Under the pieces are notes generated by a model. It saw nothing but the letters and a program-made list of their open reading frames with translations, did not search any database and was not told the origin of the DNA. Made by a program: the position numbers and the translations under genes. From Longimicrobiales bacterium (GTDB lineage Bacteria > Gemmatimonadota > Gemmatimonadetes > Longimicrobiales > Gaopeijiaceae), in NCBI GenBank assembly GCA_028279425.1, contig JANQNV010000172.1, positions 1 to 64,000 of the forward strand: a DNA stretch of 64,000 bases, read 5' to 3'. Numbering within the stretch: the first letter of the stretch is position 1; each line of letters opens with the position of its first letter. Shown in pieces: positions 4,399-20,532 of this stretch.

Positions 4399-4419
4399 CG
4401 AACCCTCCGTTGGCGAGTG

Positions 4420-4440
4420 GACGGCGCCGAACGCGCCGTC
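4420..4440 (-). terminator. Stem-loop between two secreted hydrolase genes
   Basis: Perfect 8-bp inverted repeat (GACGGCGC and GCGCCGTC) with a 5-nt loop. It lies about 58 bp after the stop of the serine hydrolase ending at 4499 and before the alpha/beta hydrolase start at 4398. There is no T tract, so it is a terminator or attenuator candidate only. Confidence 0.4.
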
Positions 4441-4498
4441 GATCGCTCGGTTACGTTGCTCGGCGAACACGTCTTCACCGGGACGGGTCGCCCGGCTC

Positions 4499-5632
4499 TC
4501 ACATCCCGAGCTTGTGGCGTTCGAAGATCTCGGCCACGCGGTTGGCGATTTGCCCGGCCGGGCCCGACACGTTGACGACGCCGGCCACGATGAGGTCGTG
4601 TTCGGGGACGGTGATGAAGAGGGTGGTGCCGCCGACGGAGCCCCCGGAATGGCCGAGCGTGACGTCGTCGTCGGCCTGAAGATTGGTTCGCCAGCCCACA
4701 CCGTAGTCGGTCGACTCGCCATTGCGCAGCGTCATCGGCGTCTGGAGTTCGGCCAGTGTCCCAGGCCGAAGAAAGCCCCCGTCACCCATGTGGGCGCGCC
4801 CGAACCGGATGAGGTCTTCGGGCGTCGAGAGGAATCCGCCTCCGGCCCACTTGTAGCTGTTGTCGACGTAGGGAGCCGGGACCACCGCCCCGCCCGCCCC
4901 GTTCTCATAGAACGACACCCGGTGCGGAATGATGGAATCCGTATGGTCGGCCACGGTGTGGCGCATGCCGAGGGGCTCGAACACCTCGTCGCGCATGAAG
5001 GTGAGGAACTCCTCGCCCGATGCCTCCTCCACCACGGCGCTCAAGAGATTCCATCCGTAGCTGGAGTACGAATAGTCGGTGCCCGGCTCGAACAGGAGCG
5101 AGTCGGCGGCGAAGATCTCGAGTCCGGCGTCGACCGTCGGGTAGCGACGCATCGAAAAGTTCTCGCGGCCCCGGTAGTGTCGAACGCCTCCGATGTGGCC
5201 CGCGATCTGTCGCACGGTGACGGGCCAGCGCTTCTCCGGGAACTCCGGCACGTACTCCTGGACCGGTGCATCGAGGTCGAGCCGACCCCGTTCGACCAGC
5301 AGGCCGATCGCGGTGGCTGTGACGGTCTTCGATACGCTACCGATCCGGAACTTCGTGAGCGTCGAGACCGGCACGCCGGCTTCGATGTCGGCCCACCCGA
5401 ATCCCTCCGACCAGATCAGGTCGTCGCCGAGACCCACGGCGATCGAAGCACCGGGCACGTTGCTTTCGACCATGATGCGACGCACCTCGGACCGGGCCTC
5501 GGCGATCGCCTCCGACCAGTCGTCGGCCGCGTGCACCTCGGCCAGCGGCAGTGCTTGTGCTAGGGCAGGCGAGGCGGCGGCGGCGATACACAGGGTGCCG
5601 AGGGCAGCGAGAGCGGCGGGGCGAACGATCAT
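4499..5632 (-). CDS. Secreted serine hydrolase, beta-lactamase family
   Basis: A 377-residue exported serine hydrolase of the class C beta-lactamase/DD-peptidase superfamily. The signal peptide MIVRPAALAALG...SPALA precedes the mature protein. All three active-site motifs are present: SVSK (IGSVSKTVTA), YSS in place of YxN (YSYSSYGW), and HSG (LGHSGGSVGG). This set resembles D-aminopeptidase/esterase members such as LACTB-like and EstB-like proteins. ATG 5632 gives a clean signal peptide, but I see no ribosome-binding site. The frame stays open upstream through the tandem repeat array, which I do not consider coding. Only 38 bp separate the start from the repeat. Confidence 0.85.
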   Translation of the reverse strand: MIVRPAALAALGTLCIAAAASPALAQALPLAEVHAADDWSEAIAEARSEVRRIMVESNVPGASIAVGLGDDLIWSEGFGWADIEAGVPVSTLTKFRIGSVSKTVTATAIGLLVERGRLDLDAPVQEYVPEFPEKRWPVTVRQIAGHIGGVRHYRGRENFSMRRYPTVDAGLEIFAADSLLFEPGTDYSYSSYGWNLLSAVVEEASGEEFLTFMRDEVFEPLGMRHTVADHTDSIIPHRVSFYENGAGGAVVPAPYVDNSYKWAGGGFLSTPEDLIRFGRAHMGDGGFLRPGTLAELQTPMTLRNGESTDYGVGWRTNLQADDDVTLGHSGGSVGGTTLFITVPEHDLIVAGVVNVSGPAGQIANRVAEIFERHKLGM

Positions 5633-6622: not shown

Positions 6623-9307
6623 TCAGTCCTCGCGCAGGGCCGCGGCGGGGGCGATGGATGAAGCCCGTTGCGCAGGCGCGACCACGGCGAGCACCACCAC
6701 GAGCCCGAGCACCGCGACGACCGTCGCGTAGCTCGTTGCGTCGATCGGGTCTACCCCGACGAAGAGTCGCTTCGCCAGCGTCGCAGAAAGCGCGGCGCAG
6801 ATGAGGCCACCCAGCAGGCCCGGCCAGGTGAGCAACACGGCATCGCGGAGGACGCTCGTCACGACTCCGCGGCGACTCGAACCCAACGCCATGCGGAGGC
6901 CGATCTCCCGGGTCCGCTGCGCTACGGAGAAGGCAACGACTCCGTAGACGCCGAGGGCCGCGAGGAAGAGGGCGAGTGCTCCCAGCGTACCGGCGATCCA
7001 GGATATGAGCCGTTGCGGCAGGAGGCCGAGGTCGGCGAGGTCGGCGAGGTGTTGCGTGCGCCCAAGGCTCAGGGCGGGGTCGTACATCTGAACCTCGCGC
7101 CGAACCCGCGCCGGGAAGTCTGGATCGTGCCCGGTGCGACGAACCCCGAGCATCAGCTCAGGATGGTACTCCTGAGAGAGCAGTGTGAATACCTGAGAAG
7201 ACGGGCCATCCGTGATCAGATCACTCTGTGTGTTCTCCACGACCCCCACCACTTCGTACTCCCGCGGCTCCAGCCCGAACTCGACGGTACGCCCGATGGG
7301 GCTCGACCCCGGCCACGCGACCTCGGCGAAGGTACGGTTGACGACGGCCACGGGTCGCGTCGTCCGGGCGTCACGTCGATCGAAGGTACGTCCCGCCGTG
7401 AGGCCGATCCCCAAGGTGGCGAAGTATCCGTGTGAGACGCGGGCGTAGTAGGCCCGATAGGTGGGGTCGTCGGCGCCGTTTGCGCCGTCGGTCCACACCG
7501 GAGACGAACTCGTCCCGCCGTCCAGCGGGTAGTCGGATGCGACGGCGGCCCCGGCGACTCCCGGGAGCCCCCGCACATGCTCGAGAAGGTCGGAGACGAA
7601 GAGCGCTGCGGCGTCGGCGTCGTGGTATCCCTCGAGAGACAGGTCGAATCCCGTGAGATATACGCCCTCTGGGTCGAAGCCGGTCTCGATGTCGGCCCCG
7701 ACGGCGATGGATCGGAGAAACACCACGGCCGAGGTCAGAAGCAGCACGGCGACGCCGACCTGACCGGCGACGAACCCGCGCCGAAGTCGACTCGTGTGTG
7801 CGGCGATGCTCGTTGTGCGCAAACCGGCTGTCGCGTGTCCACGTGTCGCGCGCAGAGCGGGCATGAGCCCGAAGATCAGCCCGACGGCGAGGGTCAGAAC
7901 GGACCCGAAGGCGATGAAGCGTCCGTCGAGCACGAACTCGAGCTCCACGGGCACGAAGGTGGGAAGGGCGCGACCTTCGGGCCATGCCAGCCCCTGCGCC
8001 ACGATCCAGGCGCCCGCAGCGCCACCGGCGACGAAAACGACCATCGCTTCGGTAACCATGTGCCGCACGATGCGCACCCTGCCCGCCCCGAGCGCGAGTC
8101 GAACGGCGATCTCGGCCTCGCGCGCCGAAGCACGGGCCAGCAACATCCCGCCCACATTGGCGCTCGCCACGGCGAGAACGAGCATCATGAGTGCGCCGAG
8201 AAGCCCGAAGGCGATGGAAGCGGGGAGGCGTCCCTCCGACGGCATGAGCGCTGCGTGTGCGGCGATCGCCCCTCGACCGACATTCTGGGCGTGTTCGCTC
8301 TCCAGACCCTCCATCGTGGTCGCGAGGGCAGCATTGGCGTCGTCGAGGGTCGCTGCTCCCGCCAGGCGCCCGATGGCGTCGGCCCACAGAGTCCCCCGCG
8401 AGCCGAAGAACCGCTCCGCGTCTCGAGCCGCGGGTGGGTATTCCGTGAGCGGGAGGTAGACGTCGGGTCGGATCCCGAACTCGTGCCCCCGGAAGTCGGG
8501 GGGCGCGATCCCGATCACCGTGTAGGGGGTCCGGTTCAGGCGGACCACACGCCCGACGATGTCGGGCTCGAAGTCGAAGAGTCGCTCCCATGCGCGATAC
8601 GAGAGCACCACCTGCGCGTGGGGGCCGGGCAGCCGATCCACCTCCCCCGTGAAGTCGCGCCCCCGGTACATCGGGACACCGACGACGGAGAAGTAGCCGG
8701 AGGTGACGTAGAGCGCGAGGAGTCGTTGTCCCGCGCCATCCCCCGACAAACTGACGGGACCCCGCTCGTAGAGGGCCGTAGACGCGAAGATGGGGATCTG
8801 CCCGAGGGACTCGAAGTCGGGATAGTCCCAGCCACCGCGCGTGTCGCCGGCGAGCGTGAGGCTCAACTCCACGATCTGGTCCGGGTCGGTCGTGCCCGGG
8901 ATCTCGCGCATCATGAGTGTGTCGACGACGGCGAACACCACCCCGTTGGCACCGACGCCTATGGCGAGCGACGCCACGGCTACGAGGGTGAAGCCCGGTC
9001 TCTTCGCTGCGCTCCGGAGGGCGAGCCGGACATCCTGTGTCCAACCCACCCAGAAGCCGGCGCGACCGGTCGCAGGGGTCGTGCTCGGGGTCGGCCATCG
9101 ATCGAGGCGGTTTCCGATCCCGTGGCGCGCGAAGGCGAGGAGATGGGCCGCCCGCGCGCCGAGCCGGTGGAGCGCGGAGCCCTCGACTCCCTGGAGATCG
9201 AGACGAAGGGCGTCGAGCGCCGCGTCGCCGAACTCGTCTCGAAAGGCCCTGGAGTAGAGGCGAAGAAGGAGGCGGTGCAGGAGCGGCGGGCGAGGGGCAC
9301 CGTTCAT
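6623..9307 (-). CDS. ADOP-family duplicated FtsX/MacB permease
   Basis: An 894-residue ABC-transporter-type permease matching the ADOP (acidobacterial duplicated orphan permease) architecture. A family-specific N-terminal region (residues 1-80) is followed by a first TM helix (FTLVAVASLAIGVGANG), a MacB periplasmic-core-like domain and an FtsX three-helix block with ASAREAEIAVRLALGAGR. A second TM helix, a second periplasmic domain and a second FtsX block (SVAQRTREIGLRMALGSS) follow. No ATPase or HlyD partner lies nearby, as is usual for ADOPs. GGAGGGG precedes the ATG. The start overlaps the padR stop as ATGA, so translation is coupled. Likely role: export of an unknown substrate or mechanotransmission under PadR control. 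Confidence 0.9.
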   Translation of the reverse strand: MNGAPRPPLLHRLLLRLYSRAFRDEFGDAALDALRLDLQGVEGSALHRLGARAAHLLAFARHGIGNRLDRWPTPSTTPATGRAGFWVGWTQDVRLALRSAAKRPGFTLVAVASLAIGVGANGVVFAVVDTLMMREIPGTTDPDQIVELSLTLAGDTRGGWDYPDFESLGQIPIFASTALYERGPVSLSGDGAGQRLLALYVTSGYFSVVGVPMYRGRDFTGEVDRLPGPHAQVVLSYRAWERLFDFEPDIVGRVVRLNRTPYTVIGIAPPDFRGHEFGIRPDVYLPLTEYPPAARDAERFFGSRGTLWADAIGRLAGAATLDDANAALATTMEGLESEHAQNVGRGAIAAHAALMPSEGRLPASIAFGLLGALMMLVLAVASANVGGMLLARASAREAEIAVRLALGAGRVRIVRHMVTEAMVVFVAGGAAGAWIVAQGLAWPEGRALPTFVPVELEFVLDGRFIAFGSVLTLAVGLIFGLMPALRATRGHATAGLRTTSIAAHTSRLRRGFVAGQVGVAVLLLTSAVVFLRSIAVGADIETGFDPEGVYLTGFDLSLEGYHDADAAALFVSDLLEHVRGLPGVAGAAVASDYPLDGGTSSSPVWTDGANGADDPTYRAYYARVSHGYFATLGIGLTAGRTFDRRDARTTRPVAVVNRTFAEVAWPGSSPIGRTVEFGLEPREYEVVGVVENTQSDLITDGPSSQVFTLLSQEYHPELMLGVRRTGHDPDFPARVRREVQMYDPALSLGRTQHLADLADLGLLPQRLISWIAGTLGALALFLAALGVYGVVAFSVAQRTREIGLRMALGSSRRGVVTSVLRDAVLLTWPGLLGGLICAALSATLAKRLFVGVDPIDATSYATVVAVLGLVVVLAVVAPAQRASSIAPAAALRED

Positions 9308-9657
9308 AGGGCCCCTCCACCGAGACCCGACGCCCGCGCCTGCCGGAGCACCGCCGTCAGCCGATCGGTTTCCGCGCTGGCCACCCGCCGCCCTCGCGCG
9401 GTCAATCGCATGTAGACCCGTCTCTCGTCGTCGACGCGGGCGTCCGGCCGCCAGTCGGAGGGCGCGATCAGCCCCTGCTCCTGCAGCTGTGCCAGGGAAC
9501 GGTACAGGGACCCGGCACCGAGCCGGACGGTGCCGTCGGTGCTCGAGGCGACCGCCTTCTTGATCGCGTACCCGTGCATGTCGCCTTCCGCCAACGCGAG
9601 GAGGATCAGGTAGTGGGCTGGACGAAGCGGGAGGAGGTCCCGTGGATCGAAGGCCAT
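9304..9657 (-). CDS. PadR family transcriptional regulator
   Basis: A 117-residue PadR winged-helix repressor. The N-terminal LRPAHYLILLALAEGDMHGY is the classical PadR helix 1-2 block, followed by GAGSLYRSLAQLQEQGLI (recognition helix) and the wing strand RRVYMRLTARGRR. The C-terminal dimerisation helix is short, as in the ADOP-linked PadR subgroup. It lies immediately upstream of the ADOP permease and overlaps it by four bases. A perfect inverted repeat 27 bp before its start is the probable autoregulatory site. Confidence 0.92.
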   Translation of the reverse strand: MAFDPRDLLPLRPAHYLILLALAEGDMHGYAIKKAVASSTDGTVRLGAGSLYRSLAQLQEQGLIAPSDWRPDARVDDERRVYMRLTARGRRVASAETDRLTAVLRQARASGLGGGAL

Positions 9658-9773: not shown

Positions 9774-10217
9774 TTACAGGACCCGTTCCATGACGAGCCG
9801 GTCGAAGCCCGGCCGAAAGCCGTCCGCCTCGCGCTCGACCACGACGAAGCCGAGCCGTTGGTAGAAGCCCTCGGTGTCCTGGCTGGTCTGCAGGCGGATG
9901 CGACGAACTCCGTTCGCCCGCGATGCGTCCGCGATGCGAGCCGATGTGAGTTCGCGGCCCCACCCGCGACGATGGAGGGCGGGGTCGACCATGCCCCAAC
10001 ACAGATCCGCGCTGGAGCCGTCGGACCCCCGTGCCCAGCCTCCGCAGCCGCGTATGGTGCCCTGGTCGTCGACGGCCACCAGATATGGGCCGGGCAGGTC
10101 GTCGAGGTACGCCTCGAACTCGGCCCGTTCCGTGAGGTCGAACGACGCCGGGATGTTGGCATCGAAGACCGCCAGACACGCCGCGCGGTCTTCCGCGTGG
10201 TAGGCGCGCATCTTCAC
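9774..10217 (-). CDS. GNAT family N-acetyltransferase
   Basis: A 147-residue GNAT acetyltransferase. The acetyl-CoA-binding motif A is RRGWGRELTSARIADA (R-x-x-G-x-G/A type). Motif B is RIRLQTSQDTEGFYQRLGF, with the usual N/E-x-x-x-x-x-FY-x-x-x-GF pattern. A GTG at 10217 overlaps the upstream stop as GTGA, which supports it over the internal ATG at 10211. It is the last gene of the polyketide operon. It may acylate a product or intermediate, but GNAT substrates cannot be read from sequence. Confidence 0.85.
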   Translation of the reverse strand: MKMRAYHAEDRAACLAVFDANIPASFDLTERAEFEAYLDDLPGPYLVAVDDQGTIRGCGGWARGSDGSSADLCWGMVDPALHRRGWGRELTSARIADASRANGVRRIRLQTSQDTEGFYQRLGFVVVEREADGFRPGFDRLVMERVL

Positions 10218-11233
10218 GGTCTGCGGGGCTCGTCGAGGTGCTGGAGCAGGGAGGCGAGCGTCCCGACGAGGACCACACCCGCGGTTTCTCGACCGAACTC
10301 CGAAGGATCGAGCGTTTCCGCCGCACGACGCGGCTGCGCGACCTCGATCGCCGGTTGGATCCGTCGGTCTCCGAGATCCAGCCCGTTCCATCCGCTCCGC
10401 GTGCGGTCGGGCGGAGGCGCCACGGCCGCGGTCGTGGGGAGCTGCGGGATCAGGCGATCCACGGGCCATTCGTCCCACTCCTGGGCTGCCTCGCGACGGC
10501 CCTCCTCGGGCGTCGCTCGGACCATGGCCGCCACCGGCTTGCTGTTCGCACGTACCGCCTGAGCCAGCCCGCGGACGAGGGCCGTCAGCGCCTCTCGCCG
10601 GAAGGTCTGCCAACCCACATCCCGATGGTGGGCCGCGAGGGTCATCGGGTCACGACCGCTCAGGTCGATGAATTGCGCACGACATACCTCGCAGAAGCAG
10701 TAGTCTGCGTCGGGCGGCGCCGAGGCGGGAGAGTGTTCGATTCCGGCGAGGACCACGCCGTCTATCTGCGGGTCGGCGGCCACCGCCCCGACATCGTCGA
10801 TCAGCTGCGCCCGCACCTCGGGCCAGCTGGGACACAACCATGCCTCGGTGTCGGAGGCGCTCGCGACCGACGACCGGCCGTCGCGCGCGACGGTGAACCA
10901 CTCGGGGTGTGCGGCGCTCCAGGGCGGGGCGGGCAGATCGCGGAGCACGTTCACGCGGGCGTAGATCGCGATCCCACTCTCGCGGAGGGAGGACGACACC
11001 GTTGGGACGGCCGCGAGGGGCACGATCGCGGCCCGGATGCCCATCGAGCGCAGCGCCTCGGGCTCGGATGCACCCAGAGCGGCGGGATCCGTCGGGGCGA
11101 TCCAGAGGTCGAACCCGCCGGGGGCCGCTCCATCGGCGGCCGGGAGGAGCTCGTCGTCGCCTCGCGTGCACCCGTACCAGAGGCCCACGGCGATCGCGAG
11201 GCCTCCAGTGCGAAGGAAGTCCTCTCGCCTCAT
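10214..11233 (-). CDS. Glycosidase-like lipoprotein
   Basis: 339 residues. The N-terminus MRREDFLRTGGLAIAVGLWYGC looks like a Tat-like or lipoprotein signal ending in Cys. The body resembles TIM-barrel putative glycosidases: strands such as GIRAAIVPLAAVPTV and IAIYARVNVL, the substrate-side APPWSAAHPEWFTV, the IDGVVLAGIEHS strand and the paired-cysteine DYCFCEVCRAQF motif found in several hypothetical glycoside-hydrolase families. A catalytic acid pair cannot be confirmed by eye. The stop overlaps the GNAT start, and the gene begins 6 bp after the upstream hydrolase stop. Sugar processing on a lipid or polyketide product is an inference only. Confidence 0.55.
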   Translation of the reverse strand: MRREDFLRTGGLAIAVGLWYGCTRGDDELLPAADGAAPGGFDLWIAPTDPAALGASEPEALRSMGIRAAIVPLAAVPTVSSSLRESGIAIYARVNVLRDLPAPPWSAAHPEWFTVARDGRSSVASASDTEAWLCPSWPEVRAQLIDDVGAVAADPQIDGVVLAGIEHSPASAPPDADYCFCEVCRAQFIDLSGRDPMTLAAHHRDVGWQTFRREALTALVRGLAQAVRANSKPVAAMVRATPEEGRREAAQEWDEWPVDRLIPQLPTTAAVAPPPDRTRSGWNGLDLGDRRIQPAIEVAQPRRAAETLDPSEFGRETAGVVLVGTLASLLQHLDEPRRP

Positions 11234-11239
11234 CGGCCG

Positions 11240-12091
11240 TCAGGTACCGACCGGCTCCGGCTTGCCCGGCACGATCTGCTTCACCCAGGACAGGATATCG
11301 GAGAGGAGCACCTTCTGGTGGTCCAGCCCCGTGACCATGTGGGTGGACTCCGGTTCGAAACGAAGGGTCGCCCGATGCTCGAGATCGAGCTCGGGAAAGG
11401 TCTCGAAGTGCTGCTCGGCGTAGTTGTACTCTTCGAGGCCGCCGGTGAAGAAGAAGTAGAGCGAAACGCCGCGATCGAGCAGCTTCCCCAACCCCTCGCC
11501 GACTACCTCGCGCGGAGGGAAGACTCGCCGATACTCGGGCTTCACGAACTGCTCTGCGTCGCGGCCTTCGAGTTCCTCGTCGGGCTGGACTCGGACCTTG
11601 ATGGAGTGGGCCCAGGCCTTCGGGTCGACGAGCTTCGGAAGGTACCGCCGTCGGAAGTAGCCGGGGGTGCGGTAGCAGAAGGCGTCGATCTGCCAGAGTC
11701 CCACGATCCGCTCATCGGCCAGCGCCGTGAAGAAGCCGCCGTCGGCGCCGCTGCAGAGACCCCCGATGATGAACGTCGAGGCACCGATGGACGACGCGAG
11801 GTAGTCCATCGCCTCGACGGATTCCTGTACGAATCGCTCTTCGATGGGCATCGAGTCGCGGCGGACCTCGGAATCGCCGATACCCGAGAAATCGAATCGG
11901 AGGCTGGTGAAGCCTTCTTCGGCGAGGGCGCGGGCGAGCTGGACGTGCGTTCGGCTGGCGCCTACGCGGTGCAGGATTCCGGAGTTCAGCATCACGAATG
12001 CCGGCGCGCCCGCTCGGGCCACCTCCGGATCCGGTTGGGTCAGGATCCCGACCAGGTTGGCCGGACCCAGCACCAAGGCTCGCTCTCTCAT
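11240..12091 (-). CDS. Alpha/beta hydrolase, exosortase-A hydrolase 1-like
   Basis: 283 residues with an alpha/beta-hydrolase fold. Strand-turn FVMLNSGILHRVGASR precedes the SLRFDFSGIGDSE segment, and the elbow is GLCSG. Cys113 therefore occupies the position of the usual Ser nucleophile (G-x-S-x-G). A conserved TGGLEEYNY segment follows, then a late His in EPESTHMV. From memory, a Cys nucleophile and this length match the exosortase-A-system-associated hydrolase 1 family (TIGR03100-like). No exosortase or PEP-CTERM gene is visible in the window. ATG 12091 overlaps the upstream gene as ATGA. Likely a thioesterase or acyl-transfer enzyme acting on the polyketide product. Confidence 0.65.
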   Translation of the reverse strand: MRERALVLGPANLVGILTQPDPEVARAGAPAFVMLNSGILHRVGASRTHVQLARALAEEGFTSLRFDFSGIGDSEVRRDSMPIEERFVQESVEAMDYLASSIGASTFIIGGLCSGADGGFFTALADERIVGLWQIDAFCYRTPGYFRRRYLPKLVDPKAWAHSIKVRVQPDEELEGRDAEQFVKPEYRRVFPPREVVGEGLGKLLDRGVSLYFFFTGGLEEYNYAEQHFETFPELDLEHRATLRFEPESTHMVTGLDHQKVLLSDILSWVKQIVPGKPEPVGT

Positions 12092-12858
12092 CCGCCCCTC
12101 GTCGCTAGCCGGTCGACGATCGACCGGATGATGTCCTGTGGAATCAGGGCGTCGCCGAACGGGTCCGCGACGGCCCAACTACCCGGCGACGGCACCACTT
12201 CGTAGTCGACGGCGTCGCCTCTCGACTCCAGCGCCGCGGCGAGCGACGTGAACCGTGGATCGTCTTCGGCGCCGATCACGCTCGTCCGCTGCGGCGACCG
12301 CGTCCCCAACTCGGCACGCAGGTCCACACTCCCCATCCGCTCCCGCAGGGCTGCGCTGAACGGATAACCCTCGATCCCCACGGTGCAGTCGCCCGGGGGA
12401 TCCGGCAAGACCTCGTTAAAATACGCTGAACCATCGACGATGGGGTCCCAGAGGATCATGTGGCGCACCTCGTCGCGCTCCCGGGCGGCGAGGGCGGCGA
12501 GGGTGGCGCCCCAGCGGAGTCCGATCAGGTCGAGTTCCTCGAGGCCGGCGGTGTCCATCAATTCATCGAGCGCCCAGTCGACGTCTTCGATCCACTGATC
12601 GAAGTCGGCCTCGTCGCCGGCGCCTCCCGAATCACCCGTGCACGAGTAATCGAACCGCAAGACGTGAATGCCCGCTCGATTGAGGAGGGTATTGAGCTGG
12701 CGGAAAGCGCGGTGGGCGCGGAGGTACTCCGATCCCACGGGGTAGCACAACAGGACGCCCCGACCCGCGTCGGGGGTCGTCGACGTGCCGTTCGAACGCC
12801 CCTGGGTGTACAGGCCGAAGAGCGGGCGTTCCGAGGGCCCGAAGTAGAACGGGTTCAT
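12088..12858 (-). CDS. Alpha/beta hydrolase, exosortase-A hydrolase 2-like
   Basis: 256 residues with an alpha/beta-hydrolase fold. The N-terminus MNPFYFGPSERPLFGLY, the GVLLCYPVGSEYLRAHRAFRQ strand-turn and HVLRFDYSCTGDSGG match the exosortase-A-associated hydrolase 2 type (TIGR03101-like, from memory). The nucleophile elbow reads GLRWGA, so Arg115 stands where Ser is expected, a feature I recall for that family. It may be non-catalytic or use a different chemistry. The start overlaps the polyketide synthase stop as ATGA, and its stop overlaps the next hydrolase start in the same way. Confidence 0.6.
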   Translation of the reverse strand: MNPFYFGPSERPLFGLYTQGRSNGTSTTPDAGRGVLLCYPVGSEYLRAHRAFRQLNTLLNRAGIHVLRFDYSCTGDSGGAGDEADFDQWIEDVDWALDELMDTAGLEELDLIGLRWGATLAALAARERDEVRHMILWDPIVDGSAYFNEVLPDPPGDCTVGIEGYPFSAALRERMGSVDLRAELGTRSPQRTSVIGAEDDPRFTSLAAALESRGDAVDYEVVPSPGSWAVADPFGDALIPQDIIRSIVDRLATRGG

Positions 12859-15800
12859 GTGGCGGCCCCGGCTCCGCGGGCCCGATCGATTTCGGCGGCG
12901 AGCTGCTCGAGCGTCTGCATCGTGAGTGCATTCGCTTCGACCCGAACCCCGGTGTCGCGCGCGATTCTCGACAATACGCGAATGCCAACGAGCGAGTGCC
13001 CGCCGGCGTCGAGGAAGTTGTCGTGGATACCCACGCGGTCGAGTCCGAGGAGTTCGGTCCAGATCGCGGCGACGACGATTTCGGTTTCGCTGCGGGGTGG
13101 GGTGAAGCTATCGGCCTCGGCGAAGGGATCGCGCAGCTGGTCGGCGGCGACGGCCCCCTCGGTGTCGCGAGGAAGGTTCACCATCTCGACGAAGTTCTGC
13201 GGAACGGCCGCGCGGTCCATACTTTTGCGCAAGTAGCGGCGCAATTCGCTGACCGTGGCCTGTCGGCCCGGATGGAAGACCACGAACGCCACGCGCCGGC
13301 TCGCCGTGGCCTCGACGTCGTCGGTCCCGATGACCGCCGCCTCGGCCACGGCATCGTGTGCTTCCAGCGCTGCGGCCGCCTCGGGCACGAGTACACGCGG
13401 AGGGCCGCTGGGCGACCTCGCGGCGGTGGGCCGCGCACGCACCGAGGGCTGTTCGACCCCGGCGAGGAGCGCCTCGAGGGGGCGTGGAACGATCCAGAGG
13501 TGCGGCGCCGTCGGCTGTGCGAGCACTCGGCGCAACATCTCCGCTCCCTCCTCGGGAAGAATCGCGTCGCGGAGCCAGTCGGGTTCGGAACTCGCGGCCG
13601 CTTCATCGTCGAGCGCCGTGCGCGGCACGCGCATCATCGAGAAGTCTTCGATCTCGGCGAGCACGGCCCCTGCCGCGTCGAAGAGCGTGACGTCGAACGA
13701 CGCGAGCGTCCCGTCGGTCTCGCGGAGGCGCACGTGGCTGGTCAGCGATGCGGGGAGCGGACGGAACAGGCGCACCCGGCCGTAGCCGGCGGGAATCAGG
13801 AAGTCGGAAGCCGGGTCGATATCGGGCACGAGGTCGGGGGCGCCCGCCGTGGCCATGTCGAGCAGCGCCGCGTGGAGTGGCGTCTGGTCGAGGTCGGAAT
13901 CGAATGCGGACGGGAGCTGCTGCGCGAGCAGCGCCTCCCCCTCGCCGACCGATGCGGCGACGATGTTGGCCCAACGCGGCCCGAAGTCCATGACCGGGTG
14001 GTCGGGCCGCGGGGTCGAGCCTGGTGACCCGATACGTGCCACGGCCTCGGTGAGGCGGGCGGCGTGCGGTGGAGCATCGCGGTCGGCGGCGACGACGCGC
14101 GCGGTCGCGTAGGTGGTCCAGCCCACCTCGTCGCGGGCGCGCCCGACCACCTCGACGGTCCACGCCGACCCCGCGGGCTGGAGACGGACTTCGAGATCGA
14201 GCGGCGCGTCTTCGCGCACCCGGCAGGCCCGAAGAAAGGCGAGGTTCTCGAGTTGCCAGGGCGACGGTTCGTCGAGATGCCGCGCGGTGGCCTCGATGAG
14301 CGACACGTAGCCCGAACCCGGAAGAATCCGCTCGCCGTCGCGGGTCTTGTGCTCGTCGAGCATCCAGTGCCGACCCCACTCCAGCGTCACCCGGAAGCGG
14401 TGGCCGTCGCCCGAGGGGATATGGCGGTCGAACGGTGCGAGATCGATGGGGTGTCCCGGGGCCGTGGTCTCGGCTCGTGGCCCGTATTGCGCGGCCTCGG
14501 CGAGTTCCGCCGCCATCCCGACCTGCTTCCAGGCGCCCCAACCGATCGACACGGTCCGCTGCCCGGTGCGGCGCTGCCGGTCGCGCGCGAAGGCGTCGAG
14601 GAAGGCGTTCGCCGCGGCGTAGTCGATCTGACCCGCGGCGCCGAGAAGCGCACTCACCGACGAGAAGACGGCGAAGAGCTTCAGGTCGAGCCCGTCGAGG
14701 ACGCGATCGAGGACCCGCGCGCCTCGCACCTTGGGATCGAGCACGCGAGCCACCTGGGCCGCGTCGCGGGCGAGAATCGGGCCGTCGTCGAGGACGCCGG
14801 CCGCGTGCAGCGCTACATCGATTCGACCGAAGCGGTCGAGGGTGTGCGACACCACACGGCGCATCGCCGCTTCATCCGCCACATCGGCGGCGTGCACGGC
14901 GACCGGACAACCTCGGTCCTCCAGGTCCAGCACGTCGCGGATGGCCCGCGCCACCTTGTCGTCTTCCTCGGAGCCCTCGAGGTGCTCGTGCCACTCCTCC
15001 TTCGGCGGCAGTCCACCCCGACTCGTCAGAACGAACCGAAGCCTCCGGCGACTCGCGAGGCTGCGGGCGAGTTCGAGGCCGATCCCGCCGAGTCCGCCGG
15101 TGATGACGACGACGTCGAGGTCGGCGAGGCCGTCGACCGGTCCGGGGTCCGGCAGGGGTACGTGGGCGGTTCCCGGCGTCAGCCGCTCGTCGCCGCGGTA
15201 CGCCACGAAGCGGACATCCTGATCCGCGCGGATCTCGGCCACGAGACGATCGACCACACGTCGCGCGGCGGGCCCGGACGCGGGGATCAGTCCCGGGTCG
15301 ACGACCCGCGTCGACATCGAGGGGATTTCGCGTGGAGCCACACGCGCCGGCCCGAGGGCGAGGGCGTGTTCGGGGGTCGTCGCTCCCTCTCCGGAGAGGA
15401 TCGACCCCGACGCCAGGACGACGAGATGGAGTGCGTGTCCCGATGCCGCTTCTTCGAGCGTTCGAAGCAGGTGCCAGGTCGATGTGAAGGCGGCTTCGAT
15501 CCCGTCCGACGGGCTGATCGGAGCCCCCTCGACGTCGAGGGCCCAGGCGTGGACGACCGTAGCCGGAAGGCCCGGCCCCCCGTCGGCCACGAGGTAGGAC
15601 CAGAGTCGACTCCAATCCTCGGCCACTCCCGGGCGGAGTTCCACTCGATCCGCGCGTGCCTGGAAGCGAGGACCCGGCACCACCACGGTGACGTCGGCTC
15701 CCGATTCACGCAGTCGACGGGGCAAGGTGGAGGCGGGGCCGTCGATCGGAGCCAGCACCAATGTCGGAGCGGCCGGCGCTTCGGGTCGTGGTCGAACCGG

Positions 15801-18599
15801 GGGGAGCGGCGTCAGCGTGGGCTGATACACCCAGTCCTCCAGCGCTTCGATGCGACTCGCCTCCGACGAGGCCGAGCGGGCGGCTGCGCTGGAATCGCCC
15901 GCGTCCGGAGGCGGCACGAAGTGGGGCTGGCGCTCGAAGGGGTACAGCGGGGCCGGCACCCGATGGCGCCGCTGGTCGGCGTCGTAGGCCGACCAGTCGA
16001 CCTCTACGCCCTGCGTCCAGAGCGCCCCCAGCGCGCCGAGCATGACCGACTGGCCGTCGACCTCGTCGCGCGGACCGGGGAGCGAACGGAGGGTCGGTTG
16101 AGCGGCCGACCACTGCGGGTGCATGCGCGACAGGGTGGTCAACGTGCTCCCGGGTCCCACCTCGAGGAGTACGGGCCCCTCTTCGGCCAGGGTCGTCGCC
16201 ACACCCTCGGCGAACCGGACCGTGTGGCGCAGGTGGCGCACCCAGTAGTCGGGCTCCACGACGTCGTCGCCGGCCGGGGCCCCGGAGAGGTTGGAGACGA
16301 AGGGCTGCTGAGGACGCCCCAGGCTGAGGGTGCGCAGATGGCGCCCGAACGGCTCCAGGATGCCCTCGAGCATGTGGGAGTGCGCAGCGACGTCGATCCG
16401 GATGCGCCGCGTGTCGATTCCGTCGGCCGCGAGCTCCGCCTCGAGTCGGTCGAGGGCCTCGACGGCACCGGCGGCCACCGTGGCCTCCGGTGCGTTGATG
16501 GCAGCGATGGAGAGGTCGTCGCCGAGCCGGGCCCGAAGCTCGGACTCGGCGAGGCCGACGCCCAACATGCCGCCCCTCGGCACCGTTTCGAAGAGTCGGC
16601 CCCGCAAGCTTACGACCGACAAGGCGTCCTCGAGTGTGAACACTCCGGCGAGGCACGCCGCCGTGTACTCGCCCATCGAGTGGCCGACCATCGTGGCCGG
16701 CTCGACGCCCCAGTGCATCCACAGGCGGGCCTGGGCGTACTGGACCGTGAAGAGGGCAGGGAGGGCGCGAGAGGGACGACGCAGTTCGGCAGCGGCGGTG
16801 GTCGGGTCGGCATCCGCCTGCCCCAGCAGCAGGGGCCGAATGTCGAAATCGAGGATCGAGTCGAGCACCGCGAGGCAGCGGTCGACCTCGGCCCGGAATA
16901 CGGGTTCGGTCTGGTAGAGGTCCCGAGCCATGCCCGGGTACTGGGCTCCTCCCCCGGCGAAGAGGAAGGCCACGCCCCTCGGAGAGGAGGCCGCCTGCCC
17001 CGAAACGAGGCCGCTTCCCTTTCCGGTCGCGAGGGCTTCGAGGGCCTCGTCGGCCGAGCGGCAGACGAGAGCCCGTCGGTGACGGAAGGCCCGGCGACCC
17101 CGTCGCAGCGTGAACGAGACGTCGGCGAGCGGCGACGTCGGGTTGGACTCGAGGTGCTCGAGCAGGCCGCGCGCCGCGTCTTCGAGCGAGGCGACCGAGC
17201 GGGTCGACAGCGTCAGGAGATGCCACGGCCGGGCCGGGCCCGAGGGACCGATGTCGGGGGCCTCCTCGAGGATCACGTGAGCGTTGGTGCCGCCCACCCC
17301 GAGCGAGTTCACGCCGGCGCGCCGGGGCTCGGGGCCCGCGGGCCACGGGCGCGCTTCGGCGTTGACGTAGAACGGCGATCCATCCAGCTCGAGCAGGGGG
17401 TTGGGGGCCTCGAAATGGACGGTCGGCGGAATGGTCGCATGGCGGAGCGCGAGGACCGCCTTCGTGAGGCTCGCCACCCCTGCCGCAGTGTCGAGGTGGC
17501 CGATGTTCGACTTGATCGAGCCGAGGGCGCAGAAGTCGACGTCGTCGGTTCCGGTCCGGAAGGCCTGTGTGAGGGCCGCCACTTCGATGGGGTCTCCAAC
17601 GGGCGTCGCCGTCCCGTGCCCCTCGATCAGGCCGATGGTGCGCGGGTGAACGTCGGCGAGCGACAGCGCCTCGGCGACCGCCTTCGACTGCCCGTCGACG
17701 CTCGGTGCGAGGTAGCTGACCTTACCGGCGCCGTCGTTGTTGACGGCCGAGGCCCGGATCACCGCGTGGACCGTGTCGCCGCTCTCGACGGCATCGACGA
17801 GACGCCGGAGCACGACGGTGCCGGCGCCGCTTCCGAAGACCGTCCCGGCGGCCTTGTGGTCGTACGATCGACAGTGCCCGTCCGGAGACAGGATCTCGCC
17901 CTCTTCGAACACGTAGCCGTGCCGGTGGGGCTGCTCGATCGTGACGCCGCCCGCGAGGGCCATGTCGCACTCCCACGAAAGGAGGCTCTGGCAGGCGTAG
18001 TGGATCGCAACGAGCGAGGTGGAGCAGGCCGTCTGGATGCTGACGCTCGGTCCAGTCAGGTCGAATTCGTACGAGGCCCGGGTGGCGAGGAAATCCTTGT
18101 CGTTGCCGGTGTGTCGGAGCAGGAAGTATCCGACGCTCGCCATCAGTTCTGGGTTGGGTACCACGTTCTTCCAGAAGTACTGCCCCGCCCCCGCACCGGC
18201 GAACACACCGATGCTCCCCTCGAAGTATTCGGGCACGTGCCCCGCGTGCTCGAGGGCGTGCCAGCAGCACTCGAGAAAGTGCCGGGTCTGGGGGTCCATG
18301 ACCGCGGCGTCTCGCGGGCTCAGCCCGAAGAAGCCGGCGTCGAACCACTCCATGCGGTCCAGGAAGCCGCCCGAGCCCACGTAGCGACGGTGGTCGAGCA
18401 GCGCGTCGGCGACACCAGCGGCGCGCATCTCCTCTCGATCGAGGTGCGCGATGCTCTCCACACCGTCGCGCAAGTTGCGCCAGAACGTCTCGAGGTCGTC
18501 GGCACCGGGCACGTGAAGCGCCATTCCCACCACGGCGATGGCGCCGTCGAGATGGGTTGGCAGTTCACGTGGACCGAGCTTCGGATCCTGCTGACTCAT
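12855..18599 (-). CDS. Type I polyketide synthase, KS-AT-KR-DH-ACP
   Basis: 1914 residues, one complete partially reducing module. KS spans about 20-445, with active Cys192 (QTACSTSL), His328 (EGHGT) and His368 (KSNIGH). AT spans about 545-850, with Ser641 in GHSMGE and an AAHS specificity segment that does not clearly call malonyl or methylmalonyl. The KR pseudo-half is at about 945-1150. The catalytic KR has TGGLGGIG at 1167, then Ser1314, Tyr1327 and Asn1331. DH spans about 1405-1660, with His1417 and Asp1581. ACP spans about 1835-1905, with phosphopantetheine Ser1869 in DAGGHSL. Residues 1745-1825 look like an adenylation-domain C-terminal lid lacking its catalytic Lys. There is no ER or thioesterase. 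GGAGAG precedes the ATG. First gene of a five-gene coupled operon. Confidence 0.93.
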   Translation of the reverse strand: MSQQDPKLGPRELPTHLDGAIAVVGMALHVPGADDLETFWRNLRDGVESIAHLDREEMRAAGVADALLDHRRYVGSGGFLDRMEWFDAGFFGLSPRDAAVMDPQTRHFLECCWHALEHAGHVPEYFEGSIGVFAGAGAGQYFWKNVVPNPELMASVGYFLLRHTGNDKDFLATRASYEFDLTGPSVSIQTACSTSLVAIHYACQSLLSWECDMALAGGVTIEQPHRHGYVFEEGEILSPDGHCRSYDHKAAGTVFGSGAGTVVLRRLVDAVESGDTVHAVIRASAVNNDGAGKVSYLAPSVDGQSKAVAEALSLADVHPRTIGLIEGHGTATPVGDPIEVAALTQAFRTGTDDVDFCALGSIKSNIGHLDTAAGVASLTKAVLALRHATIPPTVHFEAPNPLLELDGSPFYVNAEARPWPAGPEPRRAGVNSLGVGGTNAHVILEEAPDIGPSGPARPWHLLTLSTRSVASLEDAARGLLEHLESNPTSPLADVSFTLRRGRRAFRHRRALVCRSADEALEALATGKGSGLVSGQAASSPRGVAFLFAGGGAQYPGMARDLYQTEPVFRAEVDRCLAVLDSILDFDIRPLLLGQADADPTTAAAELRRPSRALPALFTVQYAQARLWMHWGVEPATMVGHSMGEYTAACLAGVFTLEDALSVVSLRGRLFETVPRGGMLGVGLAESELRARLGDDLSIAAINAPEATVAAGAVEALDRLEAELAADGIDTRRIRIDVAAHSHMLEGILEPFGRHLRTLSLGRPQQPFVSNLSGAPAGDDVVEPDYWVRHLRHTVRFAEGVATTLAEEGPVLLEVGPGSTLTTLSRMHPQWSAAQPTLRSLPGPRDEVDGQSVMLGALGALWTQGVEVDWSAYDADQRRHRVPAPLYPFERQPHFVPPPDAGDSSAAARSASSEASRIEALEDWVYQPTLTPLPPVRPRPEAPAAPTLVLAPIDGPASTLPRRLRESGADVTVVVPGPRFQARADRVELRPGVAEDWSRLWSYLVADGGPGLPATVVHAWALDVEGAPISPSDGIEAAFTSTWHLLRTLEEAASGHALHLVVLASGSILSGEGATTPEHALALGPARVAPREIPSMSTRVVDPGLIPASGPAARRVVDRLVAEIRADQDVRFVAYRGDERLTPGTAHVPLPDPGPVDGLADLDVVVITGGLGGIGLELARSLASRRRLRFVLTSRGGLPPKEEWHEHLEGSEEDDKVARAIRDVLDLEDRGCPVAVHAADVADEAAMRRVVSHTLDRFGRIDVALHAAGVLDDGPILARDAAQVARVLDPKVRGARVLDRVLDGLDLKLFAVFSSVSALLGAAGQIDYAAANAFLDAFARDRQRRTGQRTVSIGWGAWKQVGMAAELAEAAQYGPRAETTAPGHPIDLAPFDRHIPSGDGHRFRVTLEWGRHWMLDEHKTRDGERILPGSGYVSLIEATARHLDEPSPWQLENLAFLRACRVREDAPLDLEVRLQPAGSAWTVEVVGRARDEVGWTTYATARVVAADRDAPPHAARLTEAVARIGSPGSTPRPDHPVMDFGPRWANIVAASVGEGEALLAQQLPSAFDSDLDQTPLHAALLDMATAGAPDLVPDIDPASDFLIPAGYGRVRLFRPLPASLTSHVRLRETDGTLASFDVTLFDAAGAVLAEIEDFSMMRVPRTALDDEAAASSEPDWLRDAILPEEGAEMLRRVLAQPTAPHLWIVPRPLEALLAGVEQPSVRARPTAARSPSGPPRVLVPEAAAALEAHDAVAEAAVIGTDDVEATASRRVAFVVFHPGRQATVSELRRYLRKSMDRAAVPQNFVEMVNLPRDTEGAVAADQLRDPFAEADSFTPPRSETEIVVAAIWTELLGLDRVGIHDNFLDAGGHSLVGIRVLSRIARDTGVRVEANALTMQTLEQLAAEIDRARGAGAAT

Positions 18600-18631: not shown

Positions 18632-19987
18632 CTATGGGCCAGTGGGTGGCGCCACGGCCTCGCGCGTGTACACGCGCAGCAAGAGGTCGTCACCCGCTCG
18701 AGGGCCACCGCGCCCGTCGCGATTGCTGGTGCCGACCCACAGACTTCCATCGGGGGCCACCGCCACCATGCGCAGCCGCCCGTACCCACGGTCGAGGATC
18801 GGCTCCTGACACGCGAAGCTGGAGGGATCGCTCGGGTCGAAGTGAACGCGCCGGAGCCGCCCGTCCTTGAGCCCCGTGACGAGCGCCGACGGGCCCCATG
18901 CGACGTCGTCGATCCCCGCGATCGCGAGCCCGGCCGGTGCGATCCCGAAGGTCCACTCGACGGCGGGGGAAAGGAGGTCGCCTCCCCGGCTGGCTCCCGC
19001 CACGACGGGCCATCCCAGATCGTCACCCAGGGACACGACATTCAGTTCGTCGTTGCCGACCTGGCCGTCCTCCTGGAGCATCCCGGTGGGGCCGTGTTCG
19101 AGCACCACCAACTGCTCGGTCATCGGGTGCCAGCCGATCCCCTGACTATTGCGAAGTCCTCGCACCACCCAGGGGACCTGCGCGTCGGGATCCAGGGGCG
19201 CGGGACGGCCGTCGAGGTGATACCGCAACACCTTGCCCGCGATGGTCGTCGTGTCGAAGGCCCGCGGTGGCTCGGCGCCGTCCCCGTTGGTGACGTAGAT
19301 CAGCCCGTCGGGTCCAATGTCGATCGCACCGCCGCCGTGGAGGTGCCCGACGGGTACCAGGCGCACGAGCGAGTCGGGCGCCTGACCGACGTCGACTCCG
19401 GGCTCGACGCCGAAGCGGAGGATGTGCAGGGAGCGGGGCTGCCCGCCTTCGGCCGTGAACGTACGCGCGATGCGTCTGCCCAGACCCTTCAGGAAGGCCT
19501 GCAGCGGGGGGCCTCCGGTGTGGTCGAGGGTAACCGCCGTGTAGACCTCGACCCGACCGTCGGCCCGGGTGTGCGCGGCGATCCCCATGAGGCCGACTTC
19601 CTGGTCGCCCACCCGGTCGAACGTCCAGAAGGGCCGTTCCAGGATGCCCTCGGTGGGCGACCACACCCGAATCCGGCCTGGGCGCTCCGTGATCAGCGCC
19701 CGCCCGTCGGGGAGAAACGCGACGTCCCACGGCACCTCGAGCCCCGTCGCCAGGGTGTCGACGCCCACACGCGCGAGGTCGAACGCAGGCTGGCAGGTGG
19801 CCAACTCCAGGTCGAGCGCCTCGACTCCGAGTTCCTCGGGAGATGGGACCTCCGCCGGGGGAGACCCGCATGCCGCGGCGCAGAGGCCGACGAGGTGGAG
19901 TCCGATGGCGGTCGCTAGCCGGCGACCGCCTCCATGAGCGCGATGAGCTCGGTCTGGATGTGCTCGGTGCGGTCTCGCAGATACCAC
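18632..19987 (-). CDS. PQQ-dependent sugar dehydrogenase-like lipoprotein
   Basis: About 451 residues of the glucose/sorbosone dehydrogenase (GSDH, six-bladed propeller) family. Family landmarks include LATGLEVPWDVAFLPDGRAL, GLMGIAAH, the catalytic-His region HTGGP, VPVGHLHGGGAIDIGPDGLIY, RNSQGIGWHP and DLGWPVVAG. A lipobox-like LCAAAC follows a hydrophobic stretch. The start is uncertain. GTG 19987 has AAGGAG eight bases upstream but lies 73 bp inside the preceding thioredoxin-like gene, and no later ATG, GTG or TTG gives a full signal peptide. The stop is 32 bp before the polyketide synthase start. Oxidation of a sugar or aldehyde in the periplasm is the family role. Confidence 0.8.
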   Translation of the reverse strand: MVSARPHRAHPDRAHRAHGGGRRLATAIGLHLVGLCAAACGSPPAEVPSPEELGVEALDLELATCQPAFDLARVGVDTLATGLEVPWDVAFLPDGRALITERPGRIRVWSPTEGILERPFWTFDRVGDQEVGLMGIAAHTRADGRVEVYTAVTLDHTGGPPLQAFLKGLGRRIARTFTAEGGQPRSLHILRFGVEPGVDVGQAPDSLVRLVPVGHLHGGGAIDIGPDGLIYVTNGDGAEPPRAFDTTTIAGKVLRYHLDGRPAPLDPDAQVPWVVRGLRNSQGIGWHPMTEQLVVLEHGPTGMLQEDGQVGNDELNVVSLGDDLGWPVVAGASRGGDLLSPAVEWTFGIAPAGLAIAGIDDVAWGPSALVTGLKDGRLRRVHFDPSDPSSFACQEPILDRGYGRLRMVAVAPDGSLWVGTSNRDGRGGPRAGDDLLLRVYTREAVAPPTGP

Positions 19988-20532
19988 GTCTGCAGCTCCT
20001 TCTGGTACGTCTCGTAGTCCGTTCCCGACGCACCCGATCGGTAGGCCTCGAAGATGGCCTGCGCCGGACGGGGGCGGGGGCCCCAACTCCCGAAGACGTG
20101 TACGGTCTCGGGATCGAGGGCGATCACCTTGGGAATCGATCGGCTGCCATTGGTCAGGAACGCGTCCATGAGTTCCAGATGCCGATCTCGGTACACGATC
20201 CCAAGTTCGAGAGTATCGAATCGCTGGACCAGAAGGTGAAGTACCGGAAGGACCTGGGCTGCATCGCCACACCAGGCCTCGCTCAGCACGAGAAGTCGCA
20301 CCGGCCGGGAGATCCTCGCCGCCGCCTCCAGAAGACCCTCATTCAGCGTGACCGTCTTCTTCAGGCGCCTCATCCGTTGGTGGTTGAGGCGGGTGTAGAA
20401 GTTGTTCTTCTCCGACGTGTACATGGGGTCGCCGTCGATCGCGGCACCCATCCGGGCGAAGTAGACGTCGTACGAGACCGAGGCGTCGAGGCCCTGGCGA
20501 AGAAGGTCGGAAACGAGAGCGGTCGAGGACAT
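19915..20532 (-). CDS. Thioredoxin family protein, single-Cys
   Basis: 205 residues of the Thioredoxin_9-like family. The thioredoxin-fold core contains LLVLSEAWCGDAAQVLPVL, where the usual CxxC is reduced to one Cys (CGDA). It also has the cis-Pro strand GSRSIPKVIAL and DPETVHVFGSWGPRP. The family is known for a conserved WCGD and lacks the second redox Cys. It is cytoplasmic, with no signal peptide. ATG 20532 has no clear ribosome-binding site. It starts 41 bp after the AAA ATPase stop and overlaps the next gene. Redox chemistry is doubtful; a peptide-binding or mixed-disulfide role is more likely. Confidence 0.8.
   Translation of the reverse strand: MSSTALVSDLLRQGLDASVSYDVYFARMGAAIDGDPMYTSEKNNFYTRLNHQRMRRLKKTVTLNEGLLEAAARISRPVRLLVLSEAWCGDAAQVLPVLHLLVQRFDTLELGIVYRDRHLELMDAFLTNGSRSIPKVIALDPETVHVFGSWGPRPRPAQAIFEAYRSGASGTDYETYQKELQTWYLRDRTEHIQTELIALMEAVAG

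Follow-up and report, generated by a model that had tools for sequence, protein, structure and literature searches.

Two adjacent hydrolase-like proteins, here called h2 and h1, probably act in trans as a dedicated two-subunit module that off-loads an assembly line lacking a thioesterase. Their genes directly follow a type I polyketide synthase (PKS) gene in the 64,000-nucleotide stretch of Longimicrobiales DNA analysed here (the window), and the same order, carrier domain then h2 then h1, recurs behind polyketide and non-ribosomal peptide synthetase (NRPS) lines in many phyla. We assign the release step to h1 because of its position, its fold, its conserved residues and the absence of any other release domain. 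Although each part is related to known families, the open-access literature searched yielded no description of such a pair, with its dead partner, standing in for a thioesterase. The locus has the following features.

18632-20272, minus strand: GSDH-family (PF07995) lipoprotein gene, 32 bp upstream of the PKS gene; lipoprotein judged by eye, true start within the open reading frame (ORF)
12855-18599, minus strand: type I PKS, 1914 aa, KS-AT-KR-DH-(A_C remnant)-ACP, without thioesterase (Pfam, active-site motifs)
17409-18542, minus strand: PKS ketosynthase (KS), aa 20-397, with TACSTS, EGHGTAT and NIGHLD (Pfam and motifs)
16125-16967, minus strand: PKS acyltransferase (AT), aa 545-825, with GHSMGE (Pfam and motif)
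14523-15110, minus strand: PKS ketoreductase (KR), aa 1164-1359, ahead of the dehydratase (Pfam and motif)
13611-14414, minus strand: PKS dehydratase (DH), aa 1396-1663, with the H-x4-G-x4-P motif common to its relatives (Pfam)
13158-13373, minus strand: PKS AMP-binding_C (A_C) remnant, aa 1743-1814 (Pfam), A10 lysine gone (TEGAVAAD, against NGKVDR in NRPS)
12891-13073, minus strand: PKS acyl carrier domain (ACP), the C-terminal domain, PP-binding match at aa 1843-1903, with GGHSL (Pfam and motif)
12088-12858, minus strand: h2, TIGR03101-like alpha/beta-hydrolase fold, Arg115 at the nucleophile elbow, without C-terminal His; putative pseudo-enzyme
11240-12091, minus strand: h1, TIGR03100-like alpha/beta hydrolase, Cys113 elbow, His251; putative acyl-release or acyl-transfer enzyme
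10214-11233, minus strand: glycosidase-like lipoprotein, GHL10 match below cut-off, part of the gene chain
9774-10226, minus strand: GNAT acetyltransferase, loosely conserved; coding part about 9774-10226

The five genes from the PKS down to the GNAT acetyltransferase are chained by overlaps or a 6-bp gap, as described in the initial annotation, which was made from the sequence alone. Overlaps of 4 bp (ATGA) join the PKS gene to h2 and h2 to h1, the 6-bp gap separates h1 from the lipoprotein gene, and the GNAT start falls within the end of the lipoprotein gene. The start of h1 is most likely the ATG at 12091 rather than the TTG at 12178, and the codon-position GC of the GNAT ORF appears non-coding above about 10226. 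The synthase had been read as KS-AT-KR-DH-ACP; Pfam recovers all five domains, but the AMP-binding_C match at residues 1743-1814 had been overlooked. KS, AT and ACP, each with active-site motifs, make it a type I modular PKS. The protein ends 11 residues past the PP-binding match, and by Pfam no thioesterase, reductase or condensation domain follows.

The hydrolase pair had also been likened to TIGR03101 and TIGR03100 (hydrolases 2 and 1, exosortase A system-associated). These are indeed its best named matches, with the same two folds in the same order, but membership is rejected: h2 scores 73.7 bits against TIGR03101 (E 1.6e-20; cut-off 202.75), h1 scores 67.5 bits against TIGR03100 (E 1.1e-18; cut-off 168.45), and h1 belongs to a separate clade. 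Among 14 control genomes, one of the two models gives below-cut-off matches in 7 and the other in 8, so a match of this kind means little by itself, and we build the argument on how the proteins are paired, on their elbow residues and on gene order instead.

The Arg elbow of h2 (GLRWGA) and the Cys elbow of h1 (GLCSGA) are both present, as annotated. In an alignment of the window with the genome-contig loci, Cys113 and His251 of h1 are each found in 72/72 sequences; h2 has Arg115 at the nucleophile elbow in 78/79 and no conserved C-terminal His. When all groups are counted, over-cut-off and fused forms included and identical and known duplicate loci removed, h1 has its Cys in 121/121 and its His in 121/121, and h2 has its Arg in 121/125, the other four carrying Gly. 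We regard h1 as probably a cysteine enzyme and h2 as probably a pseudo-enzyme. Judging from the alignment, the likely third catalytic residue of h1 is Asp136, which comes after strand 6 (Asp in 59 of the 72 sequences, Asn in eight and Glu in five).

AlphaFold models of the two proteins are confident (pLDDT 91.0 and 92.4) and have an esterase/lipase fold. Searched by sequence and by fold, the PDB yielded esterases, lipases and further alpha/beta hydrolases of a generic kind among the matches listed; none of these listed matches was recognisable as a Cys/Arg pair. The nearest folds and profile matches are S33 esterases and lipases (PET46, 8b4u; a lipase, 7q4h; a feruloyl esterase, 7xrh), but the aligned elbow in 9pjb and 8b4u is GLSMG. 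Terminal type I thioesterases (PF00975) likewise place an alpha/beta-hydrolase fold at the end of the line. The window differs from them in using two proteins, one without a nucleophile and the other with Cys, and neither h1 nor h2 matches PF00975 at E 0.001 or better.

The window's own genome contains a second pair, on contig C338, directly behind an NRPS without a thioesterase. Both pairs are thus found behind lines that lack a thioesterase, whereas the NRPS line on contig C123, which has a cis thioesterase, has no pair. A PKS on contig C170 has no pair beside it, which counts against the off-loading reading.

Of 249 Gemmatimonadota genomes searched, 46 gave matches at E 0.001; we examined every place with E <=1.2e-11, 27 in total, and left out matches of E 7e-7 and above. 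The 27 places are the window, one truncated place (G101) and 25 pairs. A carrier domain directly precedes 17 of the 25 pairs, an assembly line and then an extra gene or aminotransferase domain precede three more (L075, L077, L081), and the last five (L082-L086) are h2-h1 fusions without a carrier.

A wider survey took 80 loci from GTDB genomes, the best 80 of at least 580 matches to the window h2, and this choice means that the sample favours the window type. Domains were called by script, using home-made profiles built from Gemmatimonadota lines. Within these best 80 of at least 580, a carrier ends no more than 350 nt upstream of h2 in 62 loci, which represent ten named phyla and one unplaced locus, and in 75 of the 80 the h1 gene lies on the same strand as h2, no more than 600 nt behind it. 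Just 4-79 aa come after the carrier in 56 of the 62 carrier-adjacent loci, so a cis thioesterase cannot fit there. In the other six (L119, L129, L139, L140, L146, L160) the carrier ORF continues in frame through h2, which puts h2 at the exact position of a thioesterase. Four loci (L087, L089, L095, L166) share contigs with Gemmatimonadota regions, making the two surveys overlap by four contigs; they were left out of the elbow-residue, A10, NRPS-upstream and internal/terminal carrier counts.

The rule has exceptions. Eighteen of the 80 loci have no carrier within 350 nt, which counts against the off-loading reading. A PPTase gene separates line and pair in L156, and L163 has a PPTase-looking ORF (by reading) in that place. 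The line is downstream of the pair in L141, L150, L164 and L133 and convergent with it in L111; L102 and L163 are close to contig ends; and in L136, L152, L158, L159 and L165 the carrier is 0.8-3.4 kb from h2. In L141 and L150, h1 adjoins h2 on the opposite strand. No assembly line was found next to the pair in L100, L101, L118, L121 and L161, which also counts against off-loading, as does the lack of any carrier found near the fused pairs L082-L086. The two proteins share one ORF in those five loci (genomes G021, G203, G172, G144 and G191; 591-753 codons from stop to stop) and in L235 and L237. Pfam was run on two of the fused loci, L082 and L085, and in both it identifies a GH2-type glycosidase in the ORF immediately before the fusion. 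As a separate observation, around positions 10000-19500 of L114 and L132 there are two convergent Hydrogenophaga NRPS lines, each with its own terminal h2-h1 pair.

The initial annotation had noted that no exosortase accompanies the pair, and the wider search bears this out: PF09721 has no match in the window's own genome bin (G000, 89.8% complete), in G167 or in G069, which belongs to the same genus and is a single contig, 97% complete. PF09721 matches in 46 of the 249 Gemmatimonadota genomes. Fifty of the 80 loci were followed to their genomes, and 31 of these 50, for which completeness is not given, have no exosortase match. In a few loci (L070/L179, L068/L180, L104, L105, L115) an NRPS-type pair does occur near an exosortase gene. 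Exosortase is thus no fixed companion of the pair, even if the two may occur in one neighbourhood. Two PEP-CTERM-like proteins are encoded in the own bin on short contigs (C240:9536-9601 and C270:1079-1147), scoring 28.7 and 19.9 bits (cut-off 16) with a short model that also passes in 2/14 control genomes; exosortase loss, the incompleteness of the bin or contamination (5.76% in this bin) are possible explanations.

In the taxonomic order to which the Hydrogenophaga genome G282 belongs, which we take to be Burkholderiales, 22 of 150 genomes have a TIGR03101 protein over the cut-off. The order of carrier, Arg protein and Cys protein also holds in the over-cut-off loci, of which 20 were retrieved. 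A discrete ACP (a small ORF with the PELDS carrier motif) is just upstream of h2 in 19 of the 20, the sole exception being L245, where no ACP motif was found; in the window, by contrast, the carrier is a domain of the PKS. The Arg elbow is present in 20/20 members from these loci and the Cys elbow in 19/19, one locus ending before h1. A stand-alone adenylating enzyme is encoded in 12 of the 20 regions, with partial matches in two more. Only one region (L230) has an exosortase match, as judged with a home-made profile in regions of 4-18 kb, so the label 'exosortase-type' rests on the TIGR03101 score. In an h1 tree made by a quick method and without a known root, the 19 over-cut-off proteins form one clade (SH-aLRT 100) and the window falls in the other, an NRPS/PKS clade. 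The best reading is that the exosortase-type pair is a sister branch of the NRPS/PKS-type pair. The earlier idea that the pair had been recruited from an exosortase system is not supported, since the association with NRPS and PKS lines is widespread and transfer could have gone in either direction.

At the A10 position of the AMP-binding_C domain, K is found in 2/19 DH-type PKS termini, compared with 50/54 NRPS termini; by sequence, the remnant before the window ACP has kept the fold match and lost the catalytic lysine, and is apparently dead. A full A_C-T stands ahead of h2 in 19/20 terminal PKS carriers, and 12/13 internal PKS carriers, many of them close relatives, match the T part alone. 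The KS domains of DH-type modules form one clade (SH-aLRT 97, in a tree with long-branch warnings elsewhere), so it is enough to suppose that a PKS module once received the 'A_C-T' end of an NRPS. We therefore rejected the remnant as a proven docking platform: one event explains the pattern, and there are deviations from it in L079, which retains A_C in an internal module, and in L146, L152, L157 and L159, whose terminal carriers have no full A_C. The remnant may have a docking role. The usual order in a PKS module is DH before KR; in the window PKS and other DH-type modules, KR comes ahead of DH.

The synthase had been taken for a stand-alone single-module enzyme, which is not supported, because its matching NRPS half is found on another contig (C61). 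Outside the window clade (G000, G069, G167, L088), an NRPS gene is immediately upstream of the DH-type PKS in 12 of 16 non-redundant loci, and in the remaining four the contig ends before the NRPS stretch; L079 has a C-like domain between the two genes. This upstream NRPS gene has a luciferase-like monooxygenase inserted in its A domain and, where its start is covered, often opens with a formyltransferase. The gene of the window's own genome (C61; L256:1960-6756) encodes 1599 aa and shares 46% identity with its L066 counterpart (L066:2406-7070) across 1587 aa. In G069, which is one 4.22-Mb contig, the NRPS gene is about 2.06 Mb from the PKS, and in G167 the two are on different contigs. The 20-kb regions around the unlinked NRPS gene in G000, G069 and G167 have no KS or pair beside it.

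The A-domain insert, searched at E 1e-60, has matches in 17 of 25 genomes: 15 of the 17 genomes that have a DH-type PKS, and two of the eight others (G101, which has the truncated h1 locus, and G252). The two exceptions with a DH-type PKS, G121 and G256, have no insert match at E 1e-60, which counts against the off-loading reading. Within the genus, four of six genomes have the window-type h1; G075, a congener without it, is also without the insert, and the NRPS-gene search covered the genus apart from G448 and G449. The simplest reading is one hybrid line that is now encoded at two places in the window genus, which is a warning against predicting products from single clusters.

Hybrids of NRPS and PKS with a formyltransferase starter or a monooxygenase in an A domain are known from lines of the linear gramicidin and myxothiazol types. 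The present line shares with them a formyltransferase, an A domain with a luciferase-like monooxygenase insert, a T domain and then a KS. It differs in its KR-before-DH module, in the apparently dead A_C before the ACP, in the h2-h1 pair that follows and, in the window genus, in being split over two loci. Luciferase-insert NRPS starter genes occur in Gemmatimonadota, Gammaproteobacteria and Nitrospinaceae, several with an N-terminal formyltransferase; the Nitrospinaceae examples include two genomes (L094, L103) whose lines contain this NRPS gene and end in the pair but have no DH-type PKS.

We propose the following sequence of steps. The NRPS (formyltransferase, A with luciferase-like insert, T), encoded elsewhere, would supply the starter unit. 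The window PKS would then extend it by one ketide with KS and AT and reduce and dehydrate it with KR and DH, leaving the chain on the ACP. As a non-catalytic partner, h2 would dock on the carrier domain and on h1, and the Cys113-His251 pair of h1, with Asp136 as the probable acid, would take the acyl chain from the terminal carrier onto the cysteine. Finally, h1 would hydrolyse the chain or hand it to an acceptor; the present data do not separate hydrolysis from transfer. We infer the thioester cleavage by h1, the docking of h2, the communication between the two synthases and the product, and another thioesterase-less release or proofreading role would give the same map.

Transfer deserves separate mention as a sub-case of the off-loading module. 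Here h1 would be an acyltransferase moving the carrier-bound acyl group to a glycan, lipid, protein or amine, as may happen in exosortase/exopolysaccharide loci, and we hold this as a tentative possibility. The invariant Cys in place of Ser (72/72) is consistent with it, as are the GH2-type glycosidases that adjoin fused pairs in both loci tested by Pfam, and exosortase-A clusters are exopolysaccharide loci. A TIGR03100 gene is located within the Bcam1330-1341 exopolysaccharide cluster of Burkholderia cenocepacia (PMC3584217). However, the loci surveyed, most of which were profiled for assembly-line, pair, exosortase and GSDH genes only, revealed no recognisable acceptor gene that is conserved alongside the pair, and the GSDH gene is confined to six non-redundant PKS loci, the window included. 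An editing function, in which the pair would clear mis-primed or stalled carriers in the manner of a type II thioesterase while the product left by another route, seems unlikely. Type II thioesterases are discrete alpha/beta hydrolases usually encoded in trans beside their line, as the pair is, and editing would account equally well for the association with carriers. But such thioesterases normally accompany lines with a terminal thioesterase of their own, and the window synthase has none; its pseudo-hydrolase is paired with an active-looking one, which is not the type II arrangement. The bare ends of 56 of the 62 carrier-adjacent lines, the six fusions that place h2 at the thioesterase position and the absence of a pair from the one own-genome line with a cis thioesterase also speak against editing.

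Two further rival readings were weighed. A true exosortase-A hydrolase pair that moved into the polyketide operon after exosortase loss would explain the best named matches, the missing exosortase in the own genome, G069 and G167, the two PEP-CTERM-like proteins in the bin and the few other loci where an NRPS-type pair is near an exosortase gene. We nevertheless consider it highly improbable: the scores are far under the cut-offs, the window is in a large NRPS/PKS clade apart from the over-cut-off clade, and most of the pair-holding genomes searched (31/50) lack an exosortase match. A chance neighbourhood of unrelated genes would fit the poor conservation of the lipoprotein and GNAT genes, but it can practically be dismissed, and for PKS-h2-h1 it is refuted by the repetition of that order in congeners and many phyla.

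A broader version of the off-loading proposal is plausible, though we lean slightly against it. The exosortase hydrolases could be one branch of a widespread, so far undescribed carrier-protein off-loading class. Its members would be strictly heterodimeric, with h2 as the dead subunit that docks on the carrier and h1 as a cysteine acyltransferase, and would take the place of the thioesterase in NRPS/PKS lines of at least ten phyla. The exosortase-A locus would then include an ACP-bound biosynthetic step, and the acyl product of that step would be set free or passed on, perhaps to exopolysaccharide or a sorted protein; two unexplained hydrolases of that locus would gain a job in handling a carrier-bound acyl group. 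For genome mining, the assembly lines described here stop at a bare carrier with no evident exit; a pair recognisable by its motifs would supply a testable release mechanism and would mark the ends of clusters.

The genes around the pair are conserved to different degrees. The PKS-h2-h1 order, which the initial annotation had suggested looking for elsewhere, extends beyond its own contig: besides the many phyla surveyed, it is found again in two congeners (G167, G069) and in L088, where identity to the window is 74-75% for h1, 65-69% for h2 and 59-68% for the PKS (67-68% for the PKS in the congeners). The five genes had been seen as one functional operon, and this part of the annotation is not supported. 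Searches of 24 loci at E 1e-4 and of nine loci at E 1e-5 turned up no glycosidase-like lipoprotein next to the PKS, and we rejected it as a member of the system. Homologues of the GNAT occur close to h1 in L088 and roughly 7 kb from it in L087. The neighbour that is kept is the upstream GSDH gene, which has the same place in G167 and G069; three more PKS loci (L066, L068, L070) have a homologue downstream of h1, at most about 1 kb away. The GSDH gene is present in 6 of 20 non-redundant DH-type loci (the window counted) and in none of the remaining loci among 119 searched, and is a better candidate member than the lipoprotein or GNAT downstream.

Two further observations concern the rest of the window. 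A large ORF at 6623-9307, permease-like by eye, adjoins a PadR regulator at 9304-9657, and homologues of both are near the G167 PKS locus in a different arrangement. At 2941-4722 there is a separate 593-aa alpha/beta hydrolase (Hydrolase_4), which matches TIGR03100 and TIGR03101 weakly.
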